From positions 1 through 33,630 of the forward strand of contig CAJONB010000017.1 in NCBI GenBank assembly GCA_905235715.1: a stretch of 33,630 nucleotides of DNA, in the 5' to 3' direction. Both the position numbers and the translations under genes were made by a program. Below are positions 615 to 21,658 of this stretch, piece after piece. Below the pieces are notes generated by a model. That model was not told the DNA's origin and did not search any database. It saw only the letters and a list, made by a program, of their open reading frames with translations. Origin of the DNA: an uncultured Ruminococcus sp. Lineage in GTDB: Bacteria; Bacillota; Clostridia; Oscillospirales; Acutalibacteraceae. Numbering within the stretch: the first letter of the stretch is position 1; every line of letters starts with the position of its first letter.

Positions 615-1727
615 GTGATTCTATTGCATAATTTAAAGATAAAATTTCATAAGTGGTTTTTATCCAAACCGGGCAAAAGCGCTGTCCATGAGATAGATAT
701 TTTGAATCTCCGGACGCTGTATTATATGTCGCTGACAGCGTTCATTCTCAATATCCTGACGTGGGTGGTTTTTCTTCTCACACAAGCGCCGGGAGCCGAC
801 AGGCTGATGGTGTTCATCATTATCGCTGTGGGTATCCTGTTGTGTGTCGCAGGCTTTTTCAGCGCACGGAAATTCCTGAACATGGGTGAAAAAATTGCCG
901 AGCATCATACCGCGGTAAATATTTTTACCTGCACGTTTTATGCCCTGCTGATTATCTGGGGAATGTTCGCGTCGCTGCCGGCATTTATCCGCGGCGAGCA
1001 GATAATCATCTTCTTCCTTGTCGAAATTTCCTTTGTATTGTTTGCACGGCTCCTGCCGGTTGTAACGACTGCGATTGTACTCCTCTCCTATCTGATTTAT
1101 GACATCGTGCTGAGCGTATGGGTAAAGCCCGGGATGATTAACCACTATTTCTTTGCGATGCTGGCGCTGATATCCGTTGTCGGCGCGGTAATCAGCTACC
1201 GCCTATTCGTCGTTTTCATCGTCGAGAAAAATAACGCGAAGCTCATCAACGAATCGCTGGAGATTATCGCGAACCATGACAGCGCGACGCGGCTCCAAAA
1301 CCGCTACGCGCTCAATAAGAATATTTCCGAATATGTCGACGCGGATATCTGTCTGGCGATGGGAGATATTAACAACTTTAAGATGGTAAATGATACCTAC
1401 GGTCATCAGACGGGCGACGAGGTTCTCGAGAAATTCTCCGATATTATGCTGAATACCTTCGGCCGTGAAGAGGTCTACCGCTACGGCGGCGACGAGTTCC
1501 TGATTGTCAGACTTACCGGCGACTATAACGCCTTTTGCAAAAAGCTCGTGTCGTTGAACAAGAAGTTCGGCAAAATCAACATCAGTGGTACAACGACGCC
1601 GTTAAGCTGCAGCTTCGGCAGCGTCAAGGCGCATCCGATGAATCAGGCGGAATTCATGGAACTGATTTCCGAGGCGGACAAAAAGCTGTATGAGGAAAAG
1701 AACAGATTGAAAAATCCGCATACATAA
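615..1727 (+). CDS. Membrane-bound GGDEF diguanylate cyclase
   Basis: About six hydrophobic N-terminal segments, then a GGDEF domain with intact YRYGGDEF. No RxxD I-site at the canonical position. GTG start is uncertain. Confidence 0.9.
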   Translation: MILLHNLKIKFHKWFLSKPGKSAVHEIDILNLRTLYYMSLTAFILNILTWVVFLLTQAPGADRLMVFIIIAVGILLCVAGFFSARKFLNMGEKIAEHHTAVNIFTCTFYALLIIWGMFASLPAFIRGEQIIIFFLVEISFVLFARLLPVVTTAIVLLSYLIYDIVLSVWVKPGMINHYFFAMLALISVVGAVISYRLFVVFIVEKNNAKLINESLEIIANHDSATRLQNRYALNKNISEYVDADICLAMGDINNFKMVNDTYGHQTGDEVLEKFSDIMLNTFGREEVYRYGGDEFLIVRLTGDYNAFCKKLVSLNKKFGKINISGTTTPLSCSFGSVKAHPMNQAEFMELISEADKKLYEEKNRLKNPHT

Positions 1728-1885: not shown

Positions 1886-1914
1886 TTGATTTCGCGCGCT
1901 TTTTATGTTAAAAT
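1886..1914 (+). promoter_or_regulatory. Putative sigma-A promoter for the pel-like operon
   Basis: TTGATT (1886-1891), 17-nt spacer, TAAAAT (1909-1914) with a TGn extension, just upstream of the riboswitch aptamer. Confidence 0.6.
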
Positions 1915-1923
1915 GTTTGCGAA

Positions 1924-2003
1924 TAACAGGGCAAACTATTTGAAAAAATAGGACGCAAAGCTACGGTGTCTAAGCGATTTCGTATGACCGACCGGCTGCA
2001 CAA
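1924..2003 (+). promoter_or_regulatory. Cyclic-di-GMP-I (GEMM-I) riboswitch aptamer
   Basis: ACAGGGCAAACUAUUUGAAAAAAUAGGACGCAAAGCUACGGUGUCUAAGC...AUGACCGACCGGCUGC matches the GEMM-I layout: CAGGGCAAAC, P2 hairpin with GAAA-type loop, GGACGCAAAGC.ACGG, GUCUAAG...AUGAC. Confidence 0.88.
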
Positions 2004-2024
2004 AATGTGCGGCCGGCTTTTTTT
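1992..2024 (+). terminator. Intrinsic terminator (riboswitch expression platform)
   Basis: CCGGCTGCACA-AAA-TGTGCGGCCGG 11-bp stem (one G-T) followed by a T7 run (2018-2024). Its 5' arm overlaps the 3' end of the aptamer. Confidence 0.8.
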
Positions 2025-2111
2025 GTTTGCTTATCCTGCCGCAGCTGCGTATAACCGTATGGAAAGCTTCTTTTCAGAGGCGGTTCATCATACGATGAAA
2101 ATGGGTGTTTT

Positions 2112-4256
2112 ATGAGAAAATACAATGTGCTTTTAACGGGAAATATCGACGCCGGTGTGTGGACGGTTGCCGACTGTCTTGAGGACGGCCGCTGTAACGT
2201 CACGGTCGCAGGCGAGGATATCGCGCCTAAGGATAAAAAATACAACAACCGCTACTTTGACCTTGCGTCGGATGAGACCCGGCTTTCTGCCATCTACAAG
2301 AGCGGAAAGTTCGATACGGTCGTGTACTTCCTGTCCGCTAAGAGCGAATCGGCTCAGTATGATATCAGCGGTGAAAGCAAGCTCGGAAAATACGCCGACG
2401 ATTTTATCTGCCATATCGGGTTCGTTACGGCGCACACCGAAATTTCTCAGCTGATACTGGTCACCGATCAGAGCGTGTTCGGCGAGGAGCAGAAAAAAGC
2501 CGAAACGACTATCCCCGACCCTGAATCCTTTGAGAGCAATCTCATGCTGATTGCAGAAAACGAGCTTGACCATATCAAGCGCAAGGAAGGCGCTCTCAAA
2601 AAGCTGTTGGTGCGCGTACCGCATCTGTATAATCCCGGCCCCGTGAGCGGATTTGCAAAGGATTTCAGCGCACCCTTGACAGCAGACCGCAGCACTCTTT
2701 ATCTCCCCGGTACTCCCGATAAGCAGTGTCAGCTGCTCAGTACAGAAGATTTCGGAAAATTCCTGCTTTTGGCAATCACCGAACAGTCGCAGGGCATTAT
2801 GCATACAAAGGGACCCGAATCCGTCTCTTACCACGAGCTGAAAAAATTCTTTGAACAGTATGACTATTCGGTCGTATACATGGGCAAGGACAACCGTCAG
2901 CTGTGTCTTGAGGGCACGCGGGCACGCAAGGAGCTGGGCTTCGTGGCAGGAGGAAACTTCCGCGAAGACCTCTATCTGAATGAAGAGAAAACCGCGATAC
3001 AAAAGCACACCGACCGGCTTAAATATATCCGCAAGGCGCTCAGCAAGCTCCTGCCGTGGATAGAGACCGGTATCGGCGCGGTGCTTATGGAGCTGCTGTG
3101 CCGCCTGACCGCACAGAATACCGTTACCGCCTTCATCGACGTCAGGCTGCTGTTCGCCGTTATCATCGGCAGCGCTCACGGCGTCTTCTTCGGCTGGCTT
3201 GCAGGCGTTATCGCCTACATCTCCTTCGCGGCGGCTTACCTCTTTAACGGCGGTCAGATATGGGACTTGCTGCTTAATCTCGATAACTGGCTGCCCTTTG
3301 TCCTGTACATCCTTGCGGGCGGCATAACGGGCTATCTCAAGACCACACACGACGACAAGCGTCAGGAGCTTTTAGAGGAGAAGGAGCGTGTGGAAGGCGA
3401 GCTGAGCTATCTGCAGGAGGTGCATCAGCACACCTGCGATATGCGCGATATGCTGATGGAGCAGGTCGTCAAATCCCGCGACAGCTACGGCAAGATCTAC
3501 AACATGGTCAACGAGCTGAACTCCGTCTATCCCGACGAGATTCTCTTCCGCGCGCTGCGTATCTTTGAGGACGTCCTCTCAAACCGTACCGTGTCCATCT
3601 ATATCCGTGAGAACGGCACGCGCTTTTTGAGAAAGCTGGTCGAATCGGAGACCACCGGCAACACGGCAAATTCGATGAACCTGAACAATTATCCGGAGCT
3701 GATTGAATATATCGACCGCAGAGAGCTTTGGGTCAACAAGAGCTTTGACGGGAATTATCCTGCCTACTGTCTGACGATGCGCTATGATGAGAATAAGGAG
3801 TTCGTCATCATTCTGTGGAACGCAGAGCCGAACCAGTATTCGAAGTATTATGAGAACCTGCTGATAATCGTTTCGCGCCTGACCTGTATGGCGCTGGTCA
3901 AGGCGGTGGAATTCAACGAGCTTCCCGACCGCTACGTCGGCAATACGAAATTCCTCAAACAGGAGGAGTTCGTCCACTCGTGGCTGACGCGCCGTCAGAT
4001 GAAGTCCGAGAAGGTCGGCAGCTATGTTATCTTCCGCTTTTCCGCCTCGCTGCCCGACGACGTGCTGAGCGAACGCTTCAGCCGCGTTGTCCGGTCGCTG
4101 GATATTGCCGGAAAGATGGACGACGGCACGCGCTATATCCTGATGATGCAGGCGAGCGAAAAGGACGCGGACATCATTCTGAAGCGTTTAGAGAACGCAG
4201 GCATAGCGGCTTATGTAACGAATGAAAAAGCGCTTGCACGCTATTTAGATAACTGA
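2112..4256 (+). CDS. pelD: SDR/NAD-epimerase-like - PelD fusion (TM segments, GAF, degenerate GGDEF; c-di-GMP receptor)
   Basis: N-terminal epimerase-like fold, four TM segments (~res 315-415), coiled coil, GAF-like region, C-terminal degenerate GGDEF with RSLD-IAGKM-DDGTR at I-site spacing. Followed by PelE/DUF2194/PelF/PelG genes. Confidence 0.75.
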   Translation: MRKYNVLLTGNIDAGVWTVADCLEDGRCNVTVAGEDIAPKDKKYNNRYFDLASDETRLSAIYKSGKFDTVVYFLSAKSESAQYDISGESKLGKYADDFICHIGFVTAHTEISQLILVTDQSVFGEEQKKAETTIPDPESFESNLMLIAENELDHIKRKEGALKKLLVRVPHLYNPGPVSGFAKDFSAPLTADRSTLYLPGTPDKQCQLLSTEDFGKFLLLAITEQSQGIMHTKGPESVSYHELKKFFEQYDYSVVYMGKDNRQLCLEGTRARKELGFVAGGNFREDLYLNEEKTAIQKHTDRLKYIRKALSKLLPWIETGIGAVLMELLCRLTAQNTVTAFIDVRLLFAVIIGSAHGVFFGWLAGVIAYISFAAAYLFNGGQIWDLLLNLDNWLPFVLYILAGGITGYLKTTHDDKRQELLEEKERVEGELSYLQEVHQHTCDMRDMLMEQVVKSRDSYGKIYNMVNELNSVYPDEILFRALRIFEDVLSNRTVSIYIRENGTRFLRKLVESETTGNTANSMNLNNYPELIEYIDRRELWVNKSFDGNYPAYCLTMRYDENKEFVIILWNAEPNQYSKYYENLLIIVSRLTCMALVKAVEFNELPDRYVGNTKFLKQEEFVHSWLTRRQMKSEKVGSYVIFRFSASLPDDVLSERFSRVVRSLDIAGKMDDGTRYILMMQASEKDADIILKRLENAGIAAYVTNEKALARYLDN

Positions 4257-4281: not shown

Positions 4282-5505
4282 ATGAGCCTGATTACTGTTA
4301 TCATCGTATTGATAATACATCTTATCCTGCTGCTCCTGCTCAGGCTGATTGCGTCCACGAAGGTCTACTTCGGCAACATCAACCTGCTGTGGGCGGCGCT
4401 GATACCGATTTTCGGGCCGGTAGCCGGACTGTTTATCGTGTTTTCGAGCGGCAAAGACCGCGACTATGACGAGCTGTACCGCATCGTCAACGGAACAACC
4501 AACGATGACTACGACTTTCGCCGTGTGAACGGAGATTTTCTCTCTGCCGAGGAGGTTTTTATCCTCAACAACGCCGCCGACAGGCGCAAGACCATGCTGG
4601 GACTTTTACGGCAGGATATCACGCCGTATATGGATATCTTAAAGCTCGCGAGTACCAACGACGACGTCGATACGGCGCACTATGCGACCACGTCGCTGAT
4701 GCAGATACAAACGGACTTTCAGAAGGACATGAGCCTGCTCGGCGCTATCGCCTCGCGCAAGGACGCGACGCTTGAAGACCACAAGCGCTACGCCGAGGTG
4801 TTAGCGTCGTATCTGGAAAATCAGTTTTTGGAAGAAAAGCTGCTGCGGCGTCATCGCCTTTTGCTCGACCAGGAGCTGAAGCTGCTGATGGAGCAGTACG
4901 GCTGCTATGACTATGACAAAGAGTATATCGAAAACCTTATCATGCTGGAGGATTACAGCAAGGCGACGGAGTTCTGCGACCGGCTTCTTGACGAAGGTGA
5001 GCCGCGTGAGGAAATCTACTTTCTGCGTATCCGCCTGTATATCATCCAGCAGGATGAAAAAGGACTGGTGAGGTTCGCGCGTAAGCTTAAAAACAGCGAG
5101 AGAACCTTCTCGCCGGATTTGCAGGAAGAGCTGAACTACTGGCTTGAGGATACAAATCGTCTTGTCGAATCAGATTACCGGACGGTCATGAACAGTGCAA
5201 TCCCCCGCCCGGTCGAGAACACGGCGGTTGACAGCAATCCCGTCACCGAGCCCGTGGAGCTTACGCAGGAAAGCAATCCTGTCACCGAGCCCGTGGAGAT
5301 TACGCAGGAAAGCAATCCCGAAATTACCGGCTCGCCGCAGGATGAGAACGTCATTGTCATGAATGACATAAAGGAGCAAAGCTCTGAAAATGTCACTCTG
5401 ACGCAGACCGGTTCCCGCAAAAAGATTCTCCTCACCGCCCTCGGTGCAGCGAGCGTCATCCTCGGAGCAGTCCTGCTGTTCCGCCCCCGGAAAAAGCGGA
5501 ATTGA
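4282..5505 (+). CDS. PelE-like membrane protein with TPR-like helical repeats
   Basis: Two N-terminal TM segments, helical repeat region, C-terminal TM; position between PelD-like and DUF2194/PelF genes. Confidence 0.6.
   Translation: MSLITVIIVLIIHLILLLLLRLIASTKVYFGNINLLWAALIPIFGPVAGLFIVFSSGKDRDYDELYRIVNGTTNDDYDFRRVNGDFLSAEEVFILNNAADRRKTMLGLLRQDITPYMDILKLASTNDDVDTAHYATTSLMQIQTDFQKDMSLLGAIASRKDATLEDHKRYAEVLASYLENQFLEEKLLRRHRLLLDQELKLLMEQYGCYDYDKEYIENLIMLEDYSKATEFCDRLLDEGEPREEIYFLRIRLYIIQQDEKGLVRFARKLKNSERTFSPDLQEELNYWLEDTNRLVESDYRTVMNSAIPRPVENTAVDSNPVTEPVELTQESNPVTEPVEITQESNPEITGSPQDENVIVMNDIKEQSSENVTLTQTGSRKKILLTALGAASVILGAVLLFRPRKKRN
5235..5318 (+). repeat. Two ~42-bp tandem copies (SNPVTEPVE[LI]TQE) within the PelE-like CDS
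   Basis: Consecutive near-identical 'agcaatcc[ct]gtcaccgagcccgtggag..tacgcaggaa' units. Confidence 0.85.
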
Positions 5506-5743
5506 TTCCGTCTTTCCGCCGTATATAAATGGATGCTTTTACTGACGCTCCGGCTGCGGTGCGGGATATTTGCCCCTGACCCTTTCCGGCGGCGGGCAGT
5601 ACTTCTTTGCGGAGTTGCCTATCGGTACGGAATATGACGTTACCAAGGCTGCAAGCAACAACTACGCTTCCTATGAAACAATACAACTTATGACATAAAT
5701 CGTTTTACCGGCAGGAACCTATGTCAAGAAAGGAGGAATCAGC

Positions 5744-7612
5744 GTGACAAATGAACAGATTCTTAACAAAACCGCCAAAAAGAAAAAGAATATCTTCTTT
5801 ACTCCGTGGCTTGCTATTCCGCTGATCCTTATGGTGGTGCTGGTGTTCGTGGCGATGCTCTATTCATCGGGCAGAAGCTATAGGATAAAGGAACAGCAGG
5901 TAGGTATGGTCGATGACGGGTTTGTACCCGAGTATGATGGGTTGAGCGAGAAAGCCGATATCCTCGTGATGTATGACTCGACGCGCACCGAATCCTCCCG
6001 GCGCTACTATGAATCGGTAACGAAGGTGCTCAACACCATCCGCCTCGACTATCAGGCGTGCGACGTCAGCACCGATAAGCCCCGCCCCGGAAAAGAACAG
6101 CTGGTGCTGTTCTGTGTTCAGGACTTTGACAATTTCAGCGCGGATGATTTCGACCGCTTTGTAAAGTGGATGAAAACCGGCAATATCGTCTTTTTCTGCA
6201 CCCCTGACTTTACCTCGGGCTTTTCGGCAATCTATCCCTATATGGGCATCAATTATGTCGACGAAAAGGAAATTGTGATTGATGATATTTATTTCAACGA
6301 CGACATTCTCCCCGGCTTAAAGGGCGAAACGCTCGAGAACACGAATCTGCTCGACGTGACGTCGCTGTGTCAGCTCAAAAAGGGCTGTAATGTTTCGATG
6401 ACAGAGACCGGTCATAACGCGCCGCTCTTGTGGGATTATAAGACCGACACCAGCTATGTGACGGTGAACAACAACAGCCTGCTCGATTCGAAGAATGTCA
6501 TCAACGGACTGTTGGCGCATATCATTGTCAAGCACGTCGGCACTCACGCATGGCCGATTCTCAACTCGATGATGGTATTCATCGACGACTTTCCGGCGCC
6601 TCAGCCCGAGGGCTTTGACGAGCGCTTAAAGGAGCAGTTCGGCTATGATACCCAGAGCTTCTTTATGAATGTATGGTGGCCGGATATGAAGGCGCTCGCC
6701 GAGAAACACGGCGTCAAGTACAACGGCGTTTTCATAGAAACCTACAACAAAAACCGTATTCCTCCCTTTGAACGCGGCTACGCGAGCGTTCTGATTAAAT
6801 ATTATGCCGCGGAGCTGCTGAACAGCGACGGCGAGATTTCCCTGCACGGCTACAACCATGAGTCCCTGATTCCCGAGGGCTTCCCGAACAAAGACGGTTA
6901 TCACGGCTGGGAAAGTGAGGAGAATATGGAGATCGCGTGCGAAACAGTACGCGATTATGCCAAGGAGCTTCTGCCCGACTACACTTTCACGTCTTATGTT
7001 CCGCCCTCCAACTATTTTTCGGAGGAGGGGCTTAAAGCGCTGAAACAGGCGTGTCCCGACATCAAAGTCATCTCGTCGCTGTACTATACCGACGAGACCG
7101 ACACCGCCTATCAGGAGGAATTCAGCGAAACAGAGGACGGTATCGTCAATGTTCCGCGTATTACCTCCGGCTTTGATATGGGACCCTTTGACACATTATT
7201 GGCGTTCAGCACACTGTATGAGGACGGCGCGTTCTCGCACTTCATCCATCCCGACGACGTGCTGGACGACGACCGCGGCGCGGCGGCAGGCTGGCAGGCG
7301 ATGAGCGAGGCGCTGGATAAATCTCTCACCCAAGTCAAAAACGGTTACCCCATGCTGCGCGGCATGACGGCGACCTCCTGCGGCGGTGCGGTACAGCGCA
7401 CACAGCGTGCAAAGGTGACGACAGAAGAAAAACAAGACGGCGACCAAAAATACATCGCCGTTGAGATAGAGAATTTTTATGACGAGCAGTGGATTGCGCT
7501 CTACACCGAGGGCGAGATTGACTCGGTCGAAGGCGGCGAGCTGTATCAGACAGGCGACCACGATTACTGGATTTGCTGCAAAAGCAGCAGCGTAAAGGCT
7601 GTGCTGAAATAA
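5744..7612 (+). CDS. DUF2194 protein, polysaccharide-deacetylase-like (PelA-like)
   Basis: GTG start with AAGGAGG RBS; N-terminal TM; 'MVFIDDFPAPQPEGF', 'LHGYNHES', 'FTSYVPPSNYFSEEGLKAL' resemble a deacetylase-like barrel. Located immediately before pelF. Confidence 0.7.
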   Translation: MTNEQILNKTAKKKKNIFFTPWLAIPLILMVVLVFVAMLYSSGRSYRIKEQQVGMVDDGFVPEYDGLSEKADILVMYDSTRTESSRRYYESVTKVLNTIRLDYQACDVSTDKPRPGKEQLVLFCVQDFDNFSADDFDRFVKWMKTGNIVFFCTPDFTSGFSAIYPYMGINYVDEKEIVIDDIYFNDDILPGLKGETLENTNLLDVTSLCQLKKGCNVSMTETGHNAPLLWDYKTDTSYVTVNNNSLLDSKNVINGLLAHIIVKHVGTHAWPILNSMMVFIDDFPAPQPEGFDERLKEQFGYDTQSFFMNVWWPDMKALAEKHGVKYNGVFIETYNKNRIPPFERGYASVLIKYYAAELLNSDGEISLHGYNHESLIPEGFPNKDGYHGWESEENMEIACETVRDYAKELLPDYTFTSYVPPSNYFSEEGLKALKQACPDIKVISSLYYTDETDTAYQEEFSETEDGIVNVPRITSGFDMGPFDTLLAFSTLYEDGAFSHFIHPDDVLDDDRGAAAGWQAMSEALDKSLTQVKNGYPMLRGMTATSCGGAVQRTQRAKVTTEEKQDGDQKYIAVEIENFYDEQWIALYTEGEIDSVEGGELYQTGDHDYWICCKSSSVKAVLK

Positions 7613-7634: not shown

Positions 7635-9086
7635 ATGAAAATTTGTCTTGTATGCGAGGGCTGTTATCCGTATGTTGCCGGCGGCGTTTCGTCGTGGGTA
7701 CAGGATATGATCAAGGCGATGCCGCAGCATGAGTTCATTATCTGGGCAATCGGCGCGAACGAGAGCATGAAGGGACAGTTTGTGTATGAGCTTCCCGAAA
7801 ACATTATCGAGGTACGCGAGGTGTTCCTCGATTCGATGCTCAGCACGCGCAGAACGCAGATGAGCGTCATCTCGCTGACCGACGAAGAAACCGTGCAGAT
7901 TTACAAAATGCTGACCTGTGAGGATCCCGACTGGGATATCATCTTCGACATGTTTAAAGAGGGCGGAATCGACCCGATTGACTTCTTGCTCGATCCGTCC
8001 TTCCTGAGGATTCTCAAGGCCGTGTGCGCGGAAAAATACCCGCACCTGCCGTTCACGGACTACTTTTGGACGGTCCGCTCGATGTTTTTGCCGCTGCTGT
8101 ATCTGATTCACAGCGAGCTGCCCGAGGCGGACTTATATCATTCCTGCTCCTGCGGCTATGCGGGCATGCTGGCGGCGGCTGCGGCAAAGCACTACGACAA
8201 GCCCTATATGCTGACGGAGCACGGTATCTATACCCGTGAGCGCGAGGAAGAGATCCTGCGTGCCGGCTGGGTCGCTCCGATGTTCAAGATTCTGTGGATT
8301 GAGCTGTTCTATATGTTTACCCGGTGCGCCTACGACGCGGCTGACATCGTGACCTCGCTTTTCAATTACGCAAGTCACGCGCAGCGCGAGCTGGGCTGCG
8401 ACGGTAAAAAGCAGCTGGTCGTGCCCAACGGCGTCAACACCGACGTTTTCTCCGTTGTGCCGCCGAAGAAGCCCGACGGCTACATCGACATCGGCGCTGT
8501 TGTGCGAATCGCGCCGATCAAGGATATCAAAACCATGCTCTATGCCTTTGCGCGCGTGGAACAGGAAACCGACAGGATCCGCCTGCATATCATCGGGCCG
8601 ACAGAGGAAAATCCCGAGTATTATCAGGAGTGTGTGACGCTTCTCGAAGAGCTGGGACTGAAAAACGCCTTCTTTACGGGACGTGTCAACACCGCGGAGT
8701 ATCTTGAAAAAATAGATTTCACCCTGCTGTCGAGTATCTCGGAGGGTATGCCTTTGGCGACGCTCGAGAGCATGGCGGCAGGACGTCCCGCAATCACCAC
8801 AAACGTCGGCTGCTGCTCGGAGCTGCTTTTCGGTACCGGCGATACCTTCGGAGAAGCCGGAATCTGCGTACCCGCGATGCACCCAAAGCAGCTTGCGGAC
8901 GCGATACTGCGCATGGCGTCCGATCCCGCGCGTATCGAGCGCATGGGCAGTAACGGCAAGAAGCGCGTCCTTGCTTACTTCCGTCACCCCGATATGATAC
9001 AGAAGTATCTGGACGCATACGATAAAACGATAGAAAACTATCATATAAGGAAGGAAACACAATGGCAGGAATCGGATTCGAACTGA
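7635..9086 (+). CDS. pelF: PelF, GT4-family glycosyltransferase
   Basis: MKICLVCEGCYPYVAGGVSSWVQDMI...ISEGMPLATLESMAAGRPAITTNVGCCSELL; characteristic PelF N-terminus (DUF3492) plus GT4 domain. Confidence 0.92.
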   Translation: MKICLVCEGCYPYVAGGVSSWVQDMIKAMPQHEFIIWAIGANESMKGQFVYELPENIIEVREVFLDSMLSTRRTQMSVISLTDEETVQIYKMLTCEDPDWDIIFDMFKEGGIDPIDFLLDPSFLRILKAVCAEKYPHLPFTDYFWTVRSMFLPLLYLIHSELPEADLYHSCSCGYAGMLAAAAAKHYDKPYMLTEHGIYTREREEEILRAGWVAPMFKILWIELFYMFTRCAYDAADIVTSLFNYASHAQRELGCDGKKQLVVPNGVNTDVFSVVPPKKPDGYIDIGAVVRIAPIKDIKTMLYAFARVEQETDRIRLHIIGPTEENPEYYQECVTLLEELGLKNAFFTGRVNTAEYLEKIDFTLLSSISEGMPLATLESMAAGRPAITTNVGCCSELLFGTGDTFGEAGICVPAMHPKQLADAILRMASDPARIERMGSNGKKRVLAYFRHPDMIQKYLDAYDKTIENYHIRKETQWQESDSN

Positions 9087-10609
9087 AAAAAGCCTTCAAG
9101 GGCAACAGCATCTCCAAAAAGGTTTGGGGCTATTCCTGCGCGTCCATCGTCGTCGGAGGCCCGACCATTCTGGTGATTGTCGTGCTGATTGTGTTGGAAC
9201 AGATTGCGAACAGCTCTACCGACGAGGGCTGGTATGTTCTTCTGGCGTTGATTACCTATGCGATGATCGGCGCTCTGCTGACCGCCTCGATATTGACGCA
9301 GGTGCTCGCACGATGGTCTGCCGACCATCTGTTCACCAAAGAATATGACAGGATTCTCCCCGCGAACTACGGCGCTTTTCTTATTTTGATTGTGCCGTTC
9401 GGTATACTTGCGGCGCTGCTGCTGTCTACCGCCGACGCGGTGACGCTCCACGATAAAGTCATCACATGGTGCGTATGGGCGCTGATGACGATGATTTATA
9501 TCCAGATGGGCACTATCACGGCAATCAAGAAATATGTCAGCCTGGTGCTGTGGTTCACCATCGGCGTTATCGCCGTGATTCTCTCGGCGCTGCTGTTTAT
9601 CCACGTGCTGCACATCTACCATATCACCTCGATTCTGCTCGCGCTGTTCATCGGCTACGGTATCATCTTCATCGGCTATACGCGCAGCCTGCATATCGAA
9701 TTCCCTCCGGGACACGGCAGTATCTTCCGCTTTGCCGAGTATATGGATAAATATAAGGCGCTGATTGTCTGCGGCTTCTTCGGCATCGCTATGTCGTTCG
9801 TGCATATCGTTATCATGTGGTATACGAGCGATTACAGCGAACAGGTGACGGGGCTGTTCTACCGCGCGAGAGTGTACGACGTATCGTCCTTCTATGCCTT
9901 TCTCGTCGCCGTACCGACCAACGTGCTTTTCGTCGTTTCGATGGAAACGCGGTTCTATGAAAAATTTCACGCTTACTTCTCGGCGGTATCGTCGAACGGA
10001 ACGCTTGAGGACGTCAAGAACGCGCGCAACGATATGATCCACGCGCTGAAAACAGAGCTGCTGCGGCTGGAGCTGATTCAGCTGATCGTCTTGATTGCCT
10101 ATATGGCGCTGATGCGGTTCTATCTGGAAACCATCGGCTTTACCCAGACGCTTCTGATTCTCTTTTTCCTTTTGTGTATCGGCTATGCGGCTCAGGGTAT
10201 CGGCGCAAGCATGGTATTGCTGATGCTGTATTTTGACGACCGGAAGGGCGCGATGCTCACGGCGCTTTCGGGCTTTACCGCCTCAGCGGTTATGACGCTG
10301 ATTTTTACCCCTTACCCGAATTTGTACGGACTTGGTTACGCAATCGCGGGACTGGTGATGTTCCTCGTCGGTCTGATACGCATCAACTTCTTTATCAAGG
10401 ACGTGGACGACTACGTCTTTGCACGTCAGCCGATATTTGAGATTGAGAGAAACAACGCCTTTCTGCGATATGTATATCATCTTGATGAACGCGCTTTGGA
10501 AAAGGAAAAGAACTTTATCAGACGCAGGAGAAAATTTGGCTTTGATAAAGATAAGCTCCGCGAGATTGAACTGGAGGAGCTTCAGGAAAGAGTGGAGGAA
10601 AAATCATGA
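9062..10609 (+). CDS. pelG: PelG, multi-pass exopolysaccharide Pel transporter/flippase
   Basis: MAGIGFELKKAF...SYASIVVGGPTIL-type PelG N-terminus and many TM segments. Overlaps the 3' end of pelF. Confidence 0.9.
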   Translation: MAGIGFELKKAFKGNSISKKVWGYSCASIVVGGPTILVIVVLIVLEQIANSSTDEGWYVLLALITYAMIGALLTASILTQVLARWSADHLFTKEYDRILPANYGAFLILIVPFGILAALLLSTADAVTLHDKVITWCVWALMTMIYIQMGTITAIKKYVSLVLWFTIGVIAVILSALLFIHVLHIYHITSILLALFIGYGIIFIGYTRSLHIEFPPGHGSIFRFAEYMDKYKALIVCGFFGIAMSFVHIVIMWYTSDYSEQVTGLFYRARVYDVSSFYAFLVAVPTNVLFVVSMETRFYEKFHAYFSAVSSNGTLEDVKNARNDMIHALKTELLRLELIQLIVLIAYMALMRFYLETIGFTQTLLILFFLLCIGYAAQGIGASMVLLMLYFDDRKGAMLTALSGFTASAVMTLIFTPYPNLYGLGYAIAGLVMFLVGLIRINFFIKDVDDYVFARQPIFEIERNNAFLRYVYHLDERALEKEKNFIRRRRKFGFDKDKLREIELEELQERVEEKS

Positions 10610-12387
10610 GAAATGCTAAATATTATATCGTTGTTATCTGCCTGTTGCTGGTGGCGGCGCTCGGCTTCTATACGCTGATTCCCGCAATGGGACTGAATGA
10701 TGACGTCAATGCTGACGCAGCGGCGGACGGGGCGAACTCCGACGAGAGCGCACGTACCGTTTCAATCGACAGCAAAAGCGATTTTCATGAAGATAACTCA
10801 ATCTACGACTATGACCATACCAAGGTCGATTACTTGTATGTTACCGTTAAGCAGGGCACCGAAGCAGAGGGCACCAATCATACCTTTGACGAGGTGAACT
10901 CCTACCGCAACCTGCAGGGCATGACGGGCGTTGAGAAAATTCTCGCGAACGCCATCGTCAAGGTCGGCGATAAAAACGGGCCTCTCCCGGGAGAGCTTGG
11001 CTATACCGAGGACGCCGCCAACGCGACCATCAATGTCCGCGGACGAACCTCGACCGGTTATCAGTGGAAGTCATACAAGCTCAAGCTGTTTAAGGACGAG
11101 GACAAGTGGCACGGCTCGCGGACAATCGCGCTGAACAAGCATCCTGCCGATTTGACGCGCCTGCGCAATATGATGTACTTCGACCTTGCCTCTCAGGTGC
11201 CGTATCTGACGAGCCTGCGGACGCACTTCGTCCATCTTTATATCTGCGACGATACGAAGTCCGGCGACGGAAGCGGCGCATATAAGGATTACGGTCTTTA
11301 CACACAGATCGAACAGCCTAACAGCACCATGCTTCGTGAGCACGGTCTGTCCTCGGGCGGCGCGCTTTACAAAGCGAACATGAACGAGTTCTTCCGCTAC
11401 AAGGATTACATAAAGCTCGCGACCGATTCGGACTATGACGAGGATAAGTTCAACGAGGTGCTAGAGGTCAAAACGACGCAGGATCACTCTAAGCTGATTG
11501 CGATGCTCGACGCCGTGAATAACTATGAAATACCGATTGAGGACACGATTGAAAAATACTTTGACGTAGACAACCTGCTCAGCTACATTGCCTTCAATAT
11601 CATCATGGGCAACCCTGACTCGAACGCGCAGAACTACTATATCTACTCCCCTGTCAACAGCGAGAAGTGGTATGTTCTGCCGTGGGACGGCGACGCGTGT
11701 CTGCGCTACTATGAATACGACGCGACGGATAACCTTTACCGTGAGGGCGAGTGGTCAAAGGGTATCAGCAACTATATGTCGGTGGGGCTGTACCAGCGTA
11801 TGTTCCAGCAGCCGGAATACAGAGAGATGCTGACCGAACGCATCGAATATCTGCACGACAATATCGTCAACAAAGAGACCGTCGGCGCACTGATTAAAAA
11901 GTACCGCGCGGTGGTCGATCCGTTTATGGAAGTCGATCCCGACAAAACCTCGCTGAGAATGGATCTGGGGCTGCGCGACGATATCCTCAACCACATGCCC
12001 GACGATGTTGAAAATGCCTATCGGTATTATTACGAATCTCTCGACAGGCCTATGCCGTTCTACCTCGCCGACGTCGAGAATGTGAAGGGCAAGCTGGAGT
12101 TCACTTGGGACCCCTCAATCAGCTTCAACGACGAGGTCATCACCTATCGCTTCCAGGTATCCGATTCACCGAGCTTTACAAAGAAATCCATTTTGGTGGA
12201 CAAAACGACCTTCAACGTCAAGTATCAGACCGATATGCTCAAAGAGGGGATGTACTTCTTCCGCGTGATTGCGACTGACGAGAGCGGCAACGAAGCGTAT
12301 GCCTTTGACGAATATTCAAGCGAAGGTATCTATAACGGTATCAGAATGTTCACGGTCGACGATAAGGGAAAGGTGGCGACGCATTGA
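10606..12387 (+). CDS. CotH-kinase family protein with C-terminal fibronectin-like region
   Basis: Signal anchor; 'TINVRGRTSTGYQWKSYKLKLF', 'YVLPWDGDACLRYYEYD'. ATGA overlap with pelG. Confidence 0.85.
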   Translation: MRNAKYYIVVICLLLVAALGFYTLIPAMGLNDDVNADAAADGANSDESARTVSIDSKSDFHEDNSIYDYDHTKVDYLYVTVKQGTEAEGTNHTFDEVNSYRNLQGMTGVEKILANAIVKVGDKNGPLPGELGYTEDAANATINVRGRTSTGYQWKSYKLKLFKDEDKWHGSRTIALNKHPADLTRLRNMMYFDLASQVPYLTSLRTHFVHLYICDDTKSGDGSGAYKDYGLYTQIEQPNSTMLREHGLSSGGALYKANMNEFFRYKDYIKLATDSDYDEDKFNEVLEVKTTQDHSKLIAMLDAVNNYEIPIEDTIEKYFDVDNLLSYIAFNIIMGNPDSNAQNYYIYSPVNSEKWYVLPWDGDACLRYYEYDATDNLYREGEWSKGISNYMSVGLYQRMFQQPEYREMLTERIEYLHDNIVNKETVGALIKKYRAVVDPFMEVDPDKTSLRMDLGLRDDILNHMPDDVENAYRYYYESLDRPMPFYLADVENVKGKLEFTWDPSISFNDEVITYRFQVSDSPSFTKKSILVDKTTFNVKYQTDMLKEGMYFFRVIATDESGNEAYAFDEYSSEGIYNGIRMFTVDDKGKVATH

Positions 12388-13151
12388 TTTTCAACTTCAA
12401 TAAGACGCCGCAGAAAAACGCGAAATTCCGCCATGAGCTGAAATATTTTCTCAACTGGCAGGAAGCGGAGCTTCTCCGTGCCCGCCTTGCTCCGATTATG
12501 GAGCGCGACCCGCATGTCAACGAGGACGGCGAGTATCTGATTCGCTCGCTGTACTTCGACGATTACTTCAACTCGGCTTATATCGAGAAGGAAGCGGGTA
12601 TTTACGCAAGAAAAAAGTACCGTATCCGTATTTATAACTACAGCGATTCCGTCATTTCCTTTGAGCGGAAGATGAAGCACGACCAGTATATCTATAAGCA
12701 ATCCGCAAAAATCACACGCGAGGAATGTGACCGGATTCTTGCAGGAGATTATGCCTTTCTGGAGAAAAGCAGCAATCCCTTCAAGCAGGAGCTTTATGTA
12801 GAACTGCAGTCGCGGCTGCTGCGTCCGAGAGTCATGGTCGACTATGAACGCGAGCCGTTTATCTACCGGGCGGGCGACGTCCGAATCACCTTTGATAAGC
12901 ACGTCAGGGGAAGCGGCTTTTATGACCTCTTTGACCCGGACTTGCCCGTGACCGACGTCGTTCCGCGCGACAAGGTGGTGCTGGAGGTGAAGTTCACCCA
13001 GTTCCTGCCTAATGTGATACGTAAGGTGCTTCCGCCGAAATCCGCGGAGAACTCCGCTATATCAAAATTCATACTCTGCTGTGACGTTGCGCCGAAAGAA
13101 GCTGAGTCCTTCACGATATGCGCGCAAAACTCAGCCATGAAGCCTGTATAA
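12384..13151 (+). CDS. VTC-domain (polyphosphate polymerase-type) protein
   Basis: FRHELKYFLNW...YLIRSLYFDDYFNSAYIEKEAG...RKKYRIRIYNYSD...FERKMK...SRLLRPRVMVDYEREPF; overlaps the CotH stop. Confidence 0.88.
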   Translation: MIFNFNKTPQKNAKFRHELKYFLNWQEAELLRARLAPIMERDPHVNEDGEYLIRSLYFDDYFNSAYIEKEAGIYARKKYRIRIYNYSDSVISFERKMKHDQYIYKQSAKITREECDRILAGDYAFLEKSSNPFKQELYVELQSRLLRPRVMVDYEREPFIYRAGDVRITFDKHVRGSGFYDLFDPDLPVTDVVPRDKVVLEVKFTQFLPNVIRKVLPPKSAENSAISKFILCCDVAPKEAESFTICAQNSAMKPV

Positions 13152-13167
13152 ACGAAAGGGGATATTT

Positions 13168-13845
13168 ATGAGTGTAAGTGATTTTATCAAGGATTCCATG
13201 ATGGAATTCTTCCAGACAGGATTGACCGTCGGCAGCGTTGTCAGTGCGATTGCGCGTCTGCTTGTCGCGCTGGCAATCGGCTTTGTCATCTATCTGCTGT
13301 ATAAGGCGAGCTTCCGCGGCGTCGTATACAGCGAATCCTTCGCGATGAGCTTGGTCGGTATGACGCTCGTCACCAGTGCGATGCTCGTCGCCATCAGCTC
13401 TAACCTGGTACTGTCGCTGGGCTGCGTCGGCGCGCTGTCGATCGTGCGTTACCGTACCGCAATCAAAAGCCCGATGGATTTGATGTTTCTGTTCCTGTGC
13501 GTCGGCGTCGGCGTTTGTATCGGTGCGGGCATGATTTACATTGCGGTGATTGTCGTGGCGCTGTTTGCCCTGCTGCTGCTGATTATGGCGAAGTCAAGAA
13601 GCAACGAGGAGCTGTACGTTCTGATTATTCATTATACGGGCGCGGATATCACCGAAAAGATTCAGAGCATCTTAGGCGATACCAAGTATAAGATCCAGTC
13701 TACCACGATTCGGAAAAACGATGTGGAGATGGCGGTAGAGGTTCGTGTCAAGAATAAGAATCTGGCGTTCACGGAGGATATTTCGGCGCTTGAAAACGTC
13801 AACGACATGACAGTCGTTCAGTATAACGGCGACTATATCGGATGA
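13168..13845 (+). CDS. DUF4956 membrane protein
   Basis: About four TM segments with 'SLGCVGALSIVRYRTAIKSPMDLMFLFLCVGVGVCIGAGM' typical of DUF4956. RBS GAAAGGGG. Confidence 0.85.
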   Translation: MSVSDFIKDSMMEFFQTGLTVGSVVSAIARLLVALAIGFVIYLLYKASFRGVVYSESFAMSLVGMTLVTSAMLVAISSNLVLSLGCVGALSIVRYRTAIKSPMDLMFLFLCVGVGVCIGAGMIYIAVIVVALFALLLLIMAKSRSNEELYVLIIHYTGADITEKIQSILGDTKYKIQSTTIRKNDVEMAVEVRVKNKNLAFTEDISALENVNDMTVVQYNGDYIG

Positions 13846-15179
13846 TGGTATTGAAGAAAACGCGGCTTTACTCTTTGCTGCTTATCATTTGCCTGATTTT
13901 TTCCGCTTGCTCTTCAAATACGAATACAGATACAGAAACTGTCACAGAGCTGACGTATGAAAAGGGAGAAAGCTCCGCCTTGAATCCGTACAAAGGCTTT
14001 GTCGCATGGGCGGATGAGGACGCGGAGAGAAACATGGACTTTTCCCTCGTGTACGTCGATATCCTGTGGAGCGAATTCGAGCAGGAAGAGGGCGTGTATG
14101 ACATCGCCGCATTAGAAGAAAAATACCACTTCTCCAAATGGCGCAAAGAGGGTAAGAAAGCCGTTTTCCGTATCGTGCTCGACAGCCCCGGCGACGAACG
14201 CCATATAGATATTCCGAAATGGCTGTATGATATGACCGGCGACGGCGTGTACTACGATATTTCCTACGGTATGGGCTACTGCCCCGATTATGCAAATCCC
14301 GTGCTTATGGAAAAGCACCGTCAATTGCTCAAAGTGCTGGCACAACGCTACGGAAAAGACGACTTTTTGGCGTACATTGAGCTTGGCTCTCTCGGCCATT
14401 GGGGAGAGTGGCATATCCACGAAGATATCGGACTTCAACTGCTCCCTGAGGTATATGAAGCCTATGTCGGGCAGTACCTTGAGGAATTCCCCGGGAAAAA
14501 GCTGCTCATGCGCAGAACGTTCAGGATTGCCGGCGAAAACGGAATCGGTCTTTATAACGATTCGTTTGCACGCGAGGGCGAGACAAACCGCTTCATCGAC
14601 TGGATTAAAAACGGCGGAGATTATGAGGACGTACCCGACGCGCTCACCCCGATGCCCGATGCGTGGAAGAACGCTCCCCTCGGGGGCGAAATCAGCAGCT
14701 CCATAGACCGCATGGCGGCGTTAGACGACGCCGATGCGCTGATGAAAACGCTCAAAGCGCTTCACGTCACCTTTATCGGCCCTACAAACTGGCTGGGCAA
14801 GGAGCTCAGCGATGAGCAATTAAAAGAAGAAAAGCGGATAGCCGACGCACTCGGCTACGACTTCTATGTCAGCGGTGTGACGATCCGCAGCAAGGGCGGG
14901 GAGAAAACCTGCGATATCGAGCTTGAAAACGCCGGCTGCGCGCCGCTGTACTATCCCTATGACATTCATATCAAGCTGACGGGGGAGGAGTATGAGGAAG
15001 AGCGTACCCTTCAGGAATACGACCTTACCGCGCTGCTCCCGGAGAATTCGATTACAATAAGCTTTCCTCTGCCGCAAGAGGCTGAATCATTATCGATCGC
15101 ACTGATGAATAATGACAGCGACGGTATCTATCTCTCAAACGATACCGAACGTGACGGCTATTGGCAAAAACTGTTTTAA
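13842..15179 (+). CDS. Lipoprotein with DUF4832/DUF4874-like glycosidase-type fold
   Basis: Lipobox 'LIFSACSS'; 'NPYKGFVAWADED...VYVDILWSEFEQEEGVYDI...GSLGHWGEWH'. Confidence 0.7.
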   Translation: MMVLKKTRLYSLLLIICLIFSACSSNTNTDTETVTELTYEKGESSALNPYKGFVAWADEDAERNMDFSLVYVDILWSEFEQEEGVYDIAALEEKYHFSKWRKEGKKAVFRIVLDSPGDERHIDIPKWLYDMTGDGVYYDISYGMGYCPDYANPVLMEKHRQLLKVLAQRYGKDDFLAYIELGSLGHWGEWHIHEDIGLQLLPEVYEAYVGQYLEEFPGKKLLMRRTFRIAGENGIGLYNDSFAREGETNRFIDWIKNGGDYEDVPDALTPMPDAWKNAPLGGEISSSIDRMAALDDADALMKTLKALHVTFIGPTNWLGKELSDEQLKEEKRIADALGYDFYVSGVTIRSKGGEKTCDIELENAGCAPLYYPYDIHIKLTGEEYEEERTLQEYDLTALLPENSITISFPLPQEAESLSIALMNNDSDGIYLSNDTERDGYWQKLF

Positions 15180-15190
15180 CGGAGATTGCT

Positions 15191-17146
15191 ATGATGAAGA
15201 TAATGGAAAAACAGAATAAGATTGCAGAGCTGATTCTATCGGTGATGATTGCGCTGTATACAATAGCGATGCTTGCGCTGGGTGCGGCAGGCGGCGAATT
15301 CTTCTACGTCGGTATGACGGACGCAGAACGCATCGTTTTCTGGCTGGTAACAGCCGTCGGCGTATGCGCATTCTTTCTGGCGGCGATTCAGGAGCTGCGC
15401 TTTAACGGACGGCAGCCGTACCGTATGTTCTGTATGCTTACGGTATGCGTCGGCTTTATTCCGCTGATTGCGGACGCCTTCAGCATACTGCAGGGCAGCG
15501 ATATCCTGCTGCGCGTTGCGCTGGGATTTGTTGCGTCGGGCATGATACTGGCAAGCATCAGCCGCCGCAACAGCCTGATTGCGTTTGCGGCAATTGTGCT
15601 GACGCTGCTTTCACTTGTACTGCCGCGCTCCGAACCGCTTATGAGAGCATGGGCCATTTTGCTGTTCCTGCTGCCGGTTCTCTCTGCCGCGTTCACGCGC
15701 GATTTTGCAAAAAAGCAGGTCTTTATCCGCATCCCATGCAGCTTTGTCTGTGCGGCGCTCTGTATTACGGGCTATGTTTGGAACCGCAGCTTTTATGCAA
15801 TCGCGGCGGTTGCGTGTATACTGTACGTCGGACTGTGTATTTGGCTCAATGCAGGCGTGCTGAAGCGCATGGCAGAGCAGGAAAAGGCGGCAAATTTGAA
15901 GCCCGCGCCTGCTTTGGAAGCTGTGACAGCAGCGCCGGTATCCGAAACGATTGCAGAACCCCTTCCCGAAAGCAATACAAAAGCGGCTCCTCCGGCGGCT
16001 GAGCCCGCGCCGGCGGCGCCCGCCGAAATTGCTGTTCCGGTACAGCCTGAGACGGTCGCAGAAGCTCCTTCGGCAGCGGTCACGGAGACAAAGGAAGCTC
16101 GTATTGTTGCCGAAAATATCGTACAGGAGCTTGCACTGACAGATAAATTTGACGGCGTTGTCGCCTTTCTGCTGGACAAGGACGGTACATGGTACCGCTA
16201 TGTGCGGTCAAAGCAGGATATCCTGCCGTGTGACGACAGCCTGAATCCGCTCCTCGAAAGCCTGCTCGAAAAAGATAAGCGCGAATCTGTCGTCCAAGCA
16301 ATCAAGACACAGGACTCCTGCAAGATTCCGTGCCGTATGTGGGACAACCGGCAGAATGTGTATACCGATGTTCTGATCCAATCCGTCACCCGACCCGACG
16401 GGCGCAAATATGTTTTGATTTTCAATACCTCCGCCGCTATCACACAGGAGAATGAGAGAGTCGCTGTGCTGGAGCAGGAGGTTGATAAGCTGAACGCATT
16501 CATCGACGCAAAGTACCAAGACGAACGGCGTATTTTCTTCGCGGTCAATGAGTTCCTTATCTCGCTGATTGAGCGCCGCAGTGAAGAATCGGTCAAGCAT
16601 CTGAACAACATCTCGCTCTGTACCGCTATCCTGATGAAAAAGGCGCAGGAGCTGTATCCCGAGATGGGAATTACCGATGAATTTATCCGCGACGTATCCG
16701 ATGCGTCAATCTTCCACGACGTCGGCAAGATTGAGGTGCCTGACGCGGTACTGACGAAGAAAGGCAGATTCACTCCCGAAGAATATGAGGAGATGAAGAA
16801 GCATACTGTCTACGGCGGCGAGATTATCAACCGTATGCCCTACGCCAAGAGCCAGGAGCAAATCATGAAATACGCCTATGAAATTGCCATCAAGCACCAT
16901 GAGCGTGCCGACGGCAAGGGCTATCCGCTCGGACTGACGGAAAAGGATATCCCCTTCTATGTCCAGGTTGTATCGCTTGCCGATGTATTTGAGGCGCTGG
17001 TATCCAAGCGCGTCTACAAGGATGCCATCCCCTTTGAAAAGGCCATCCAAATGATTGAAAACGGTGAAAGCGGAGCCTTCTCCGATAAGATTATCAAGTG
17101 CCTTGAGGCTTCGCGCGAGGAACTGAAAAACGTTCAGCTGGCATGA
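15191..17146 (+). CDS. Membrane HD-GYP protein (predicted c-di-GMP phosphodiesterase)
   Basis: TM segments, Ala/Pro-rich linker, then 'HDVGKIEVPD...GRFTPEEYEEMKKHTVYGGEII...HHERADGKGYPLGL'. Start moved to ATG 15191 (RBS GGAG) from the track start 15161. Confidence 0.87.
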   Translation: MMKIMEKQNKIAELILSVMIALYTIAMLALGAAGGEFFYVGMTDAERIVFWLVTAVGVCAFFLAAIQELRFNGRQPYRMFCMLTVCVGFIPLIADAFSILQGSDILLRVALGFVASGMILASISRRNSLIAFAAIVLTLLSLVLPRSEPLMRAWAILLFLLPVLSAAFTRDFAKKQVFIRIPCSFVCAALCITGYVWNRSFYAIAAVACILYVGLCIWLNAGVLKRMAEQEKAANLKPAPALEAVTAAPVSETIAEPLPESNTKAAPPAAEPAPAAPAEIAVPVQPETVAEAPSAAVTETKEARIVAENIVQELALTDKFDGVVAFLLDKDGTWYRYVRSKQDILPCDDSLNPLLESLLEKDKRESVVQAIKTQDSCKIPCRMWDNRQNVYTDVLIQSVTRPDGRKYVLIFNTSAAITQENERVAVLEQEVDKLNAFIDAKYQDERRIFFAVNEFLISLIERRSEESVKHLNNISLCTAILMKKAQELYPEMGITDEFIRDVSDASIFHDVGKIEVPDAVLTKKGRFTPEEYEEMKKHTVYGGEIINRMPYAKSQEQIMKYAYEIAIKHHERADGKGYPLGLTEKDIPFYVQVVSLADVFEALVSKRVYKDAIPFEKAIQMIENGESGAFSDKIIKCLEASREELKNVQLA

Positions 17147-19376: not shown

Positions 19377-19418
19377 GAAACAAAAGCATATTTTAATAGA
19401 TTGGGAAGGGTTTCTTTT

Positions 19419-21191
19419 ATGAACGGAAACGGAAAAATCATCACAAAGCTGTTCCGCGGAACGGTCATCAGTATTATCGCGGCGACCGTAGCGGCGATGA
19501 TCGGCATTGTGGTGGACGGTATTGTTATCGGTCGTTTTTTGGGTGAGGACGGCATGGCGGCGTATACGCTGGTAATGCCCGTCGTCAATCTCGCCACCGC
19601 GTTCAGCGGAATTTTGGCGACAGGCTCACAGGTACTCTGTGCGCACCATCTGGGTGCGGGCGATAAGACGAAGGCGCGAAAATCATTCACGGCTTGTATG
19701 ATCATCACCGTCGCCGTTTCGGTGATTCTGATGGTAGGCATCCTTCTGTTCAAGGAGGAGATCTGCGTCATTCTCGGCGCTAAAACCGATGTTCTGCTGA
19801 AGGGCTCGACGGATTATCTGCTCGGCGTCATGTTTGCGCTGCCGTCGGTACTGTTCCTCTTTGAATTCAACGCCCTGATGCGCCTTGACGGCGACGCGAA
19901 CCGCGTTGTCGTAGCGGTTGCCGTGATGACCGCGCTGGATATCGCGGGCGATTTGCTGAATGTGCTGGTTTTTAAGGGCGGACTGTTCGGCATGGGTCTT
20001 GCCACCTCCATCAGCTACGGCATCGGACTGATTATCATGCTCCTGCATTTTACCAAGAAGGATATTATCTTCAAGCCGTATTTCAAGGGAATCAAGTTCA
20101 AGGACTTCGGCGAAATCTTTGTCACCGGCTCCTCGTCGGGGGTCGGCTCTGCTTCGGCAATGATGCGTGTTGCGATAATCAACCGCATTCTGGTCGGCGT
20201 TGTCACCACGGCATTTGCCAGTACGGCGCTGGCGGCGTTCGGCATTGTGAATACGGTCATTAATCTCGTTTCGTCCATCATGGTCGGCGTCGGCATGACC
20301 TGTGCGACAATCGCGGGTCTGATGATAGGCGAGCAGGACCGTTCCGCTATGATCTCGCTGATTAAGGTGACGGTCAGAACCGCGCTGCTGATGGGCGCCG
20401 GCTTTGCAATCGTACTCTTTGCGGGAGCGAATTGGATTGCGGGTGTTTTCAGCGAAAGCAGCAATCCCGAAATGATTTCCCTTGCCGCGAGAGGCTTGCG
20501 GTTCTACGCGGTCGCGATTCTTCTGTACGGCGTCAACAACGCCTTTGTAAACTATACACAGGGCTTAAAGCGGATGGCGATTTCCAACACCTACTGCTTC
20601 CTGCAGAACTTTGTATTCATCATCGTTCCCGCGCTGGCATTATCCGGCATCATAGGCACCGACGCGGTATGGGCGTCGTTCATTATCGGCGAGGTGCTGA
20701 CGATGCTCGCGATTTTCGGACTGGCGGCACATTACAAGCACGGTTTTCCTCATACATACGACGATTTCCTTTTCCTGAAGGAACCGTTCGGCATTGCGCC
20801 CGAGAACGCCTTTGAATTTTCTATCGAGAATCAGGACGCCGTGATTCCTGCTTCCGAGGCGGCGCGCGATTTTTGTGAGAGTCACGGAGCAACGCCGAAG
20901 CAGGCGTATCTGATGTCCCTCTTTGTTGAGGAGCTGTGCAACAACGTCATCGAATTCGGCTTTGCCGACGGCAAGAAGCACACCATTGAAATCCGTATCC
21001 TGAACACGGAGGACGGCTGGATTCTCCGCTACAGGGACAACTGCAATGCGTTCGACCCGGTCGAATGGCTCAAGCTCCATGAACAGGACGACCCGACTGC
21101 CAATATCGGTATCCGTATGGTCTGCGGTATGGCGAAGGACGTCAAATATCTCAGCACCATGGATTTGAACAATCTGACCGTTTATCTTTAA
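19419..21191 (+). CDS. MATE-family transporter fused to a C-terminal RsbW/SpoIIAB-like HATPase domain
   Basis: Twelve-TM MATE-like region; C-terminal ~140 aa with N-box 'LFVEELCNNVIEFGF' and 'ILRYRDNCNAFDP...NIGIRMVCGMAKDVKY'. Start at ATG 19419 preceded by GGAAGGG. Confidence 0.85.
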   Translation: MNGNGKIITKLFRGTVISIIAATVAAMIGIVVDGIVIGRFLGEDGMAAYTLVMPVVNLATAFSGILATGSQVLCAHHLGAGDKTKARKSFTACMIITVAVSVILMVGILLFKEEICVILGAKTDVLLKGSTDYLLGVMFALPSVLFLFEFNALMRLDGDANRVVVAVAVMTALDIAGDLLNVLVFKGGLFGMGLATSISYGIGLIIMLLHFTKKDIIFKPYFKGIKFKDFGEIFVTGSSSGVGSASAMMRVAIINRILVGVVTTAFASTALAAFGIVNTVINLVSSIMVGVGMTCATIAGLMIGEQDRSAMISLIKVTVRTALLMGAGFAIVLFAGANWIAGVFSESSNPEMISLAARGLRFYAVAILLYGVNNAFVNYTQGLKRMAISNTYCFLQNFVFIIVPALALSGIIGTDAVWASFIIGEVLTMLAIFGLAAHYKHGFPHTYDDFLFLKEPFGIAPENAFEFSIENQDAVIPASEAARDFCESHGATPKQAYLMSLFVEELCNNVIEFGFADGKKHTIEIRILNTEDGWILRYRDNCNAFDPVEWLKLHEQDDPTANIGIRMVCGMAKDVKYLSTMDLNNLTVYL

Positions 21192-21221
21192 ACAAGCAAG
21201 CGATAAATTAATTTTTACTTA

Positions 21222-21296
21222 TGTCATTCTGAGGAGCAAAGCGACGAAGAATCTTTATAGTCCATCGAAAGCTCCTTCACTTTGCTCAGGATGACA
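21222..21296. repeat. Short MITE-like element with the TGTCATyCTGAG terminal inverted repeat
   Basis: tgtcattctgaggagcaaagcgacgaaga...ctccttcactttgctcaggatgaca; near-inverted ends. Confidence 0.75.
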
Positions 21297-21361
21297 GAGC
21301 AAAAATATTAATACTATTCACTACAATAAAAATTTTTATTATATCCAAAGGAGAGACAGCT

Positions 21362-21658
21362 ATGACAATCAACACAAAACGCGAAGGAAATAAACTCTAC
21401 GCCCAGGTCAAAGGAAGAATCGACACCGTTACCGTCAGCGAGGCGGAGCGTATTCTCACTTCCGATCTTGACTCGTTAACCGAGCTGACGCTTGATTTCA
21501 AGGAGCTCGATTATATTTCATCCGCAGGACTGAGATTACTGCTTTCCCTGCAAAAAACGCTGGGCAAGCAAGGCTCAATGAAGCTGTTGAACGTGAACGA
21601 AACCGTTATGGAAATTTTTGAAGTCACGGGCTTCTCAGATATTCTGACCATTGAATGA
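21362..21658 (+). CDS. STAS-domain anti-sigma factor antagonist-like protein
   Basis: 98 aa; 'VKGRIDTVTVSEAERIL...LDYISSAGLRLLLSLQ...MEIFEVTGFSDILTIE'; RBS AAAGGAG. Confidence 0.88.
   Translation: MTINTKREGNKLYAQVKGRIDTVTVSEAERILTSDLDSLTELTLDFKELDYISSAGLRLLLSLQKTLGKQGSMKLLNVNETVMEIFEVTGFSDILTIE

Follow-up and report, generated by a model that had tools for sequence, protein, structure and literature searches.

A predicted c-di-GMP-I riboswitch with an overlapping terminator upstream of a clostridial-type pel operon

Introduction

The Pel exopolysaccharide is switched on after its machinery has been made, by the binding of c-di-GMP to PelD. Matrix control in gut Firmicutes has, to our knowledge, been little studied. 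In the clostridial pel loci described by Whitfield (2020), an extended PelD is accompanied by CotH, polyphosphate polymerase, DUF4956 and DUF4832 proteins, and residues R363, D366 and R395 of B. cereus PelD are required for c-di-GMP binding (PMC7112168). Two riboswitches offer the nearest parallels to the leader studied here. In Bc2, upstream of the Bacillus thuringiensis cap gene, a c-di-GMP-I aptamer is followed by an intrinsic terminator and c-di-GMP gives read-through, which makes it a validated ON switch (PMC4933901). The pilM riboswitch of Geobacter metallireducens, a GEMM-Ib member with a weak P1, is an experimentally supported ON switch in which aptamer and terminator exclude each other and the ligand-pairing cytosine (C75 in pilM, equivalent to C87 in Cd1) is captured by the terminator (PMC9262584).

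Here we analyse a stretch of 33,630 nt from an uncultured Ruminococcus sp., hereafter the window, in which a c-di-GMP-I aptamer and an intrinsic terminator precede a pel operon. The operon has the gene set and order of the Gram-positive pelDEADAFG loci of clostridial type, including the SDR-like PelD N-terminus and the RxxD motif, but differs from the published loci by a diguanylate cyclase gene upstream and an HD-GYP gene at its end (PMC7112168). Unlike the leader in the window, Bc2 controls one collagen adhesin gene rather than a polysaccharide operon, and its target is not a c-di-GMP receptor (PMC4933901). The pilM riboswitch differs in its ligand, cGAMP, and in controlling pili, the specificity base being G in the window (PMC9262584). 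The riboswitch class, the ON logic and the operon type are already known, whereas the pairing of a riboswitch with pel was not found reported: the term riboswitch has 0 occurrences in PMC7112168, and none of the open-access papers searched describes pel under the control of a riboswitch, most subscription papers being outside the scope of that search.

Results

The preliminary description had proposed a Pel-like exopolysaccharide operon, and the annotation bears this out: the operon is of the clostridial pel type, and the scores of PelF (332 bits) and PelG (330 bits) make both sequence-based identities unambiguous (Table 1). The gene at 4282-5505 is a candidate pelE by gene order, and the DUF2194 protein is a candidate deacetylase by domain resemblance. 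The tail of the PelE-like protein is marginally LPXTG-like (LTQTG, a TM segment and a basic end; PF00746 at 20.2 against 20 bits). The HD-GYP protein carries the motifs HDVGK and HHERADGKGYP. No strong plus-strand terminator was found between 2112 and 17146, which is consistent with a single transcript for this region; a gap of 239 nt at 5505-5744 could accommodate a further start. Elsewhere in the window, an unusual run of genes at 19401-26321 encodes a MatE transporter-HATPase_c_2 fusion, a STAS protein, an A-T-C NRPS and a carboxylesterase.

Table 1. Features of the leader and pel locus, with their positions in the window
Feature	Position	Strand	Basis or remarks
Membrane diguanylate cyclase	615..1727	+	PF00990 92 bits
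Promoter-like -35/-10 pair, TTGATT-17-TAAAAT	1886..1914	+	9/12 matches, TG before -10
c-di-GMP-I (GEMM-I) aptamer	1920-2003	+	Rfam RF01051, 66.2 bits
Intrinsic terminator	1992..2024	+	stem 1992-2002/2006-2016, U-run 2018-2024
pelD-like, 714 aa	2112..4256	+	SDR/epimerase-like N-terminus, TM segment, GAF, degenerate GGDEF, RSLD predicted I-site
pelE-like membrane/helical-repeat protein	4282..5505	+	position/synteny only
DUF2194 protein, candidate PelA-type deacetylase	5744..7612	+	PF09960 400 bits, PF10096
pelF glycosyltransferase	7635..9086	+	NF038011 PelF equivalog 332 bits, cutoff 100
pelG	9062..10609	+	PF16933 330 bits
cotH-like kinase gene	10606..12387	+	PF08757 207 bits
VTC-domain (polyphosphate polymerase-like) gene	12384..13151	+	PF09359 124 bits
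DUF4956 gene	13168..13845	+	PF16316 34 bits
DUF4832 gene	13842..15179	+	PF16116 53 bits
HD-GYP protein, candidate c-di-GMP phosphodiesterase, last gene	15161..17146	+	PF13487 95 bits

As a single sequence the PelD-like protein gave nothing useful in Pfam, NCBIfam or PDB searches, and its domains were detected with profiles built from a 13-sequence alignment. With these, the N-terminus proved SDR/epimerase-like (best PDB match 3m2p, E 2e-22), the C-terminus matched GGDEF-domain structures (best E 0.003) and a GAF domain was matched in relatives only. R661xxD664 aligns with the RxxD lying just before the GGEEF motif of 7e6g, in a weaker profile match. This RxxD (R661, D664) is invariant in all 13 PelD homologues, as is G667, with R692 almost invariant, and the spacing of 661, 664 and 692 nearly equals that of 363, 366 and 395 in B. 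cereus PelD. The protein is thus predicted to carry a c-di-GMP I-site. A structure prediction of the C-terminus from two sequences reached a mean pLDDT of 50 and was not usable.

Searching the whole window with Rfam cmscan returned one above-threshold match, which secures the GEMM-I aptamer proposed earlier: RF01051 is matched over model positions 1-87 of 87 and scores 66.2 bits, where the gathering threshold is 35 (E 5e-11). In Vc2 numbering, G1930, A1957 and C1999 correspond to G20, A47 and C92, the last being the ligand-pairing cytosine; all three predicted c-di-GMP contact bases are present, as are a GAAA tetraloop (1942-1945) and, in the Rfam alignment, its receptor strands CUAAG and UAUGA. 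The specificity position 20 is a G, as in the c-di-GMP type, where the cGAMP class (GEMM-Ib) carries an A, which leaves the window aptamer outside GEMM-Ib. The Rfam pairs of P3 are 1959-1962/1994-1997, 1965-1967/1991-1993 and 1968-1970/1986-1988. P1 is reduced to almost nothing, a single U-A pair at position 14/93, so affinity could be low; Cd1 likewise lacks P1 (PMC9262584). The RNA can be assigned to the c-di-GMP-I class and would be expected to bind c-di-GMP.

The promoter-like pair described earlier does exist as a sequence at 1886-1914, from which transcription would start at about 1920-1922. Its standing as a promoter is plausible but unproven: with only 9 of 12 matches, and about 1.5 such sites expected by chance in the leader stretch, it is weak on its own. 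The GC-rich 11-bp terminator with a T7 run that had also been claimed was recovered at 1992-2016, with 8 G-C pairs, an AAA loop, C2017 and then U7 at 2018-2024 (-20.2 kcal/mol). Terminators of at least 10 bp and at least 7 G-C pairs with a T-rich tail arose in 3 of 20,000 dinucleotide shuffles of 1730-2111, and this is the only one of such strength on either strand of the window. On the shuffles, together with the compensatory changes given below, a chance co-occurrence of terminator and aptamer is rejected. The leader elements lie close to the PelD-like start, as had been stated, the 714-aa ORF beginning at 2112.

The terminator 5' arm includes nucleotides 1992-1997 of the P3 3' strand, that is six of the seven nucleotides of its lower part, as well as C1999, the predicted ligand-pairing base; the claim that this arm shares bases with the 3' side of the aptamer therefore stands. 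No separate or competing antiterminator was found in the leader, the aptamer 3' strand being shared directly. Since the arm takes both P3 nucleotides and C1999, the bound aptamer and the terminator are predicted to be mutually exclusive. When the growing transcript was folded, P2 and P3 were formed until about 2014 (P3 paired with ends at 1994-2014) and the full terminator appeared at 2016. The terminated fold reaches -32.5 kcal/mol versus -16.3 kcal/mol for the aptamer, the latter being the value of a truncated fold (1920-1998). With the terminator about 16 kcal/mol more stable, switching, if real, has to be under kinetic control, with little time for binding; such control has been modelled for pilM (PMC9262584).

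To place this layout among relatives we surveyed GEMM-I aptamers, which were found in 35 of the 200 family genomes and 17 of the 60 genus genomes searched. Across 61 aptamers drawn from family and genus genomes and from pel loci, automatic scoring placed the C92 equivalent within the terminator 5' arm in 41; as five of these look like poor folds (L002, L004, L010, L014, L020), 36-41 is a fair range. Pairing of C92 was itself a selection criterion, and the evidence consequently lies in neighbouring positions which change with pairing kept. Among the 41 overlapping aptamers, one such position is U-A in 22, C-G in 9 and U-G in 5, and another is C-G in 23, U-A in 3 and A-U in 3. The overlapping layout recurs in every one of the other five pel-linked aptamers (L024, L029, L129, L130 and L165, the last from another family). 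It is not the only arrangement in the family, as the terminator follows the aptamer in L005, L008 and L022.

The survey yielded other variants. Within this Firmicutes family, an A at position 20, typical of cGAMP-binding GEMM-Ib, was seen in L005, L007, L008, L009, L015, L020, L030, L051 and L078. In L063, L067, L068, L070, L071, L073, L076 and L077, C-G (TGCCAAAC ... GACGGAAAG) replaces the conserved G21-C46 pair; these aptamers are genus-specific and often tandem. GEMM-I also lies directly before VTC and DUF4956 genes in L018, L025, L055, L057, L059, L064 and L065, loci in which no further pel genes were detected nearby and terminators overlap the aptamer likewise.

The cyclase encoded upstream of the leader has an intact YRYGGDEF motif and lacks an RxxD I-site before it; a degenerate GGDEF motif was considered and rejected, as the sequence reads GGDEF. 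It is 44% identical over its length to a diguanylate cyclase of L088 whose gene adjoins a GEMM-I aptamer before unrelated genes. Family searches of the genome (1.81 Mb in 152 contigs, 95% complete) matched one GEMM-I, that of this locus; two GGDEF proteins, the upstream cyclase having the only intact motif found; one HD_5 protein, encoded by the HD-GYP gene of the operon; and no PilZ protein. The second GGDEF match, at L139:1348-3086 on contig 139, is a response regulator that carries degenerate GGDEF and EAL domains; a frame change, reflecting either decay or an assembly error, splits its EAL part. On these counts most recognisable c-di-GMP parts sit in the pel locus, although missing sequence could hide more, and the locus resembles a self-contained module for this signal.

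PelD-like proteins were matched in 19 of 398 family genomes. The sequences of L131 and L133 stop at pelD. Where the DNA ahead of an examined CotH-type cluster could be read, GEMM-I lies upstream on the same strand in five (the window, L101, L102, L129, L130) and is absent from four (L031, L132, L134, L135). In L101, L102, L129 and L130 the aptamer is some 3 kb away from pelD, with a coiled-coil-like gene and an HD-GYP gene in between. At the class level, 13 of 393 genomes besides that of the window match PelD and only L165, from another family, has GEMM-I, located upstream of pelD with an overlapping terminator. Riboswitch control of pel as a general trait of Clostridia is rejected on this single case among 13 class relatives and on its absence from the four clusters above. 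The nearest pel relative, L031, whose PelD is 66% identical, lacks a riboswitch, its pel genes being preceded by an unrelated gene. The window aptamer groups with those of its genus-mates rather than with other pel-linked aptamers (support 0.65, from short sequences). This grouping and the L088-like cyclase suggest repeated recruitment of the riboswitch to pel, from which we weakly infer that the pairing may have arisen more than once. In L132:8767-11568, L134:333-3125 and L135:16165-18969, an HD-GYP domain is fused to the PelD N-terminus (930-934 aa), so that a single protein is predicted to be both esterase and receptor for c-di-GMP.

Discussion

The leader probably acts as a transcriptional c-di-GMP-I ON riboswitch governing the pel operon. 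The ON direction is a prediction drawn from the mutual exclusion of aptamer and terminator, following the logic of the validated Bc2 and of pilM. RNA polymerase would start near 1920 and the aptamer would fold first. With c-di-GMP bound through contacts to C1999 and G1930, P3 and C1999 would be locked, the terminator 5' arm would be unavailable and pel would be transcribed. Without ligand, the emerging 3' arm (2006-2016) would capture 1992-2002, including C1999, the resulting hairpin would precede U7 and transcription would stop after about 104 nt. Having allowed transcription, c-di-GMP would then activate synthesis through the predicted I-site of the PelD-like protein, which the operon itself encodes; the same signal would act twice. 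The c-di-GMP would most likely come from the upstream cyclase, and the terminal HD-GYP protein would probably act as a brake in a putative feedback; the product of the operon is likewise predicted to be Pel. Against the ON reading stand the weak promoter, the near-absent P1, the more stable terminator, the riboswitch-free L031 and the precedent of Bc1.

That precedent introduces an alternative we regard as unlikely, namely that the aptamer binds c-di-GMP but hardly regulates, either because termination is constitutive or because another promoter starts inside or after the leader. In Bc1, a GEMM-I RNA with terminators, c-di-GMP is bound and expression is unchanged (PMC11218506), and both the weak match of the leader promoter and a terminator far more stable than the aptamer would suit such a case. 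Yet the exact overlap is retained with compensatory changes at many loci, six pel-linked ones among them, which would be difficult to account for if the overlap had no function, and promoter-like matches within the operon do not exceed what chance would give. An OFF switch, in which ligand would favour termination through an alternative pairing, is very improbable. The class does include a validated clostridial OFF switch, Cd1 of C. difficile (PMC9262584), and the terminators of L005, L008 and L022 are positioned after the aptamer; however, the Cd1 aptamer and terminator are able to coexist (PMC9262584), whereas those of the window cannot, its terminator needing C1999 and P3. Least probable of all is 3',3'-cGAMP as the ligand, for although the fold and ON layout are as in pilM (PMC9262584), the specificity position is G and not A, and the locus holds the predicted c-di-GMP I-site of PelD and an ordinary GGDEF cyclase.

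Returning to the ON switch, a wider reading is possible but tentative: the locus would be a private circuit of one cyclase, an RNA switch, a PelD receptor and an HD-GYP esterase, in a genome with few other recognisable c-di-GMP parts, gating Pel at both transcription and the synthase, and such riboswitch control would have arisen independently more than once through local riboswitches or cyclase-plus-riboswitch cassettes. If c-di-GMP also gates transcription via RNA, a single molecule would govern the pathway at two points, when the Pel proteins are produced and when they work. Such double gating would mean a sharper threshold and no idle synthase, a design that is testable. With so little other c-di-GMP machinery in its genome, this bacterium would offer a simple natural system for a dedicated second-messenger circuit.
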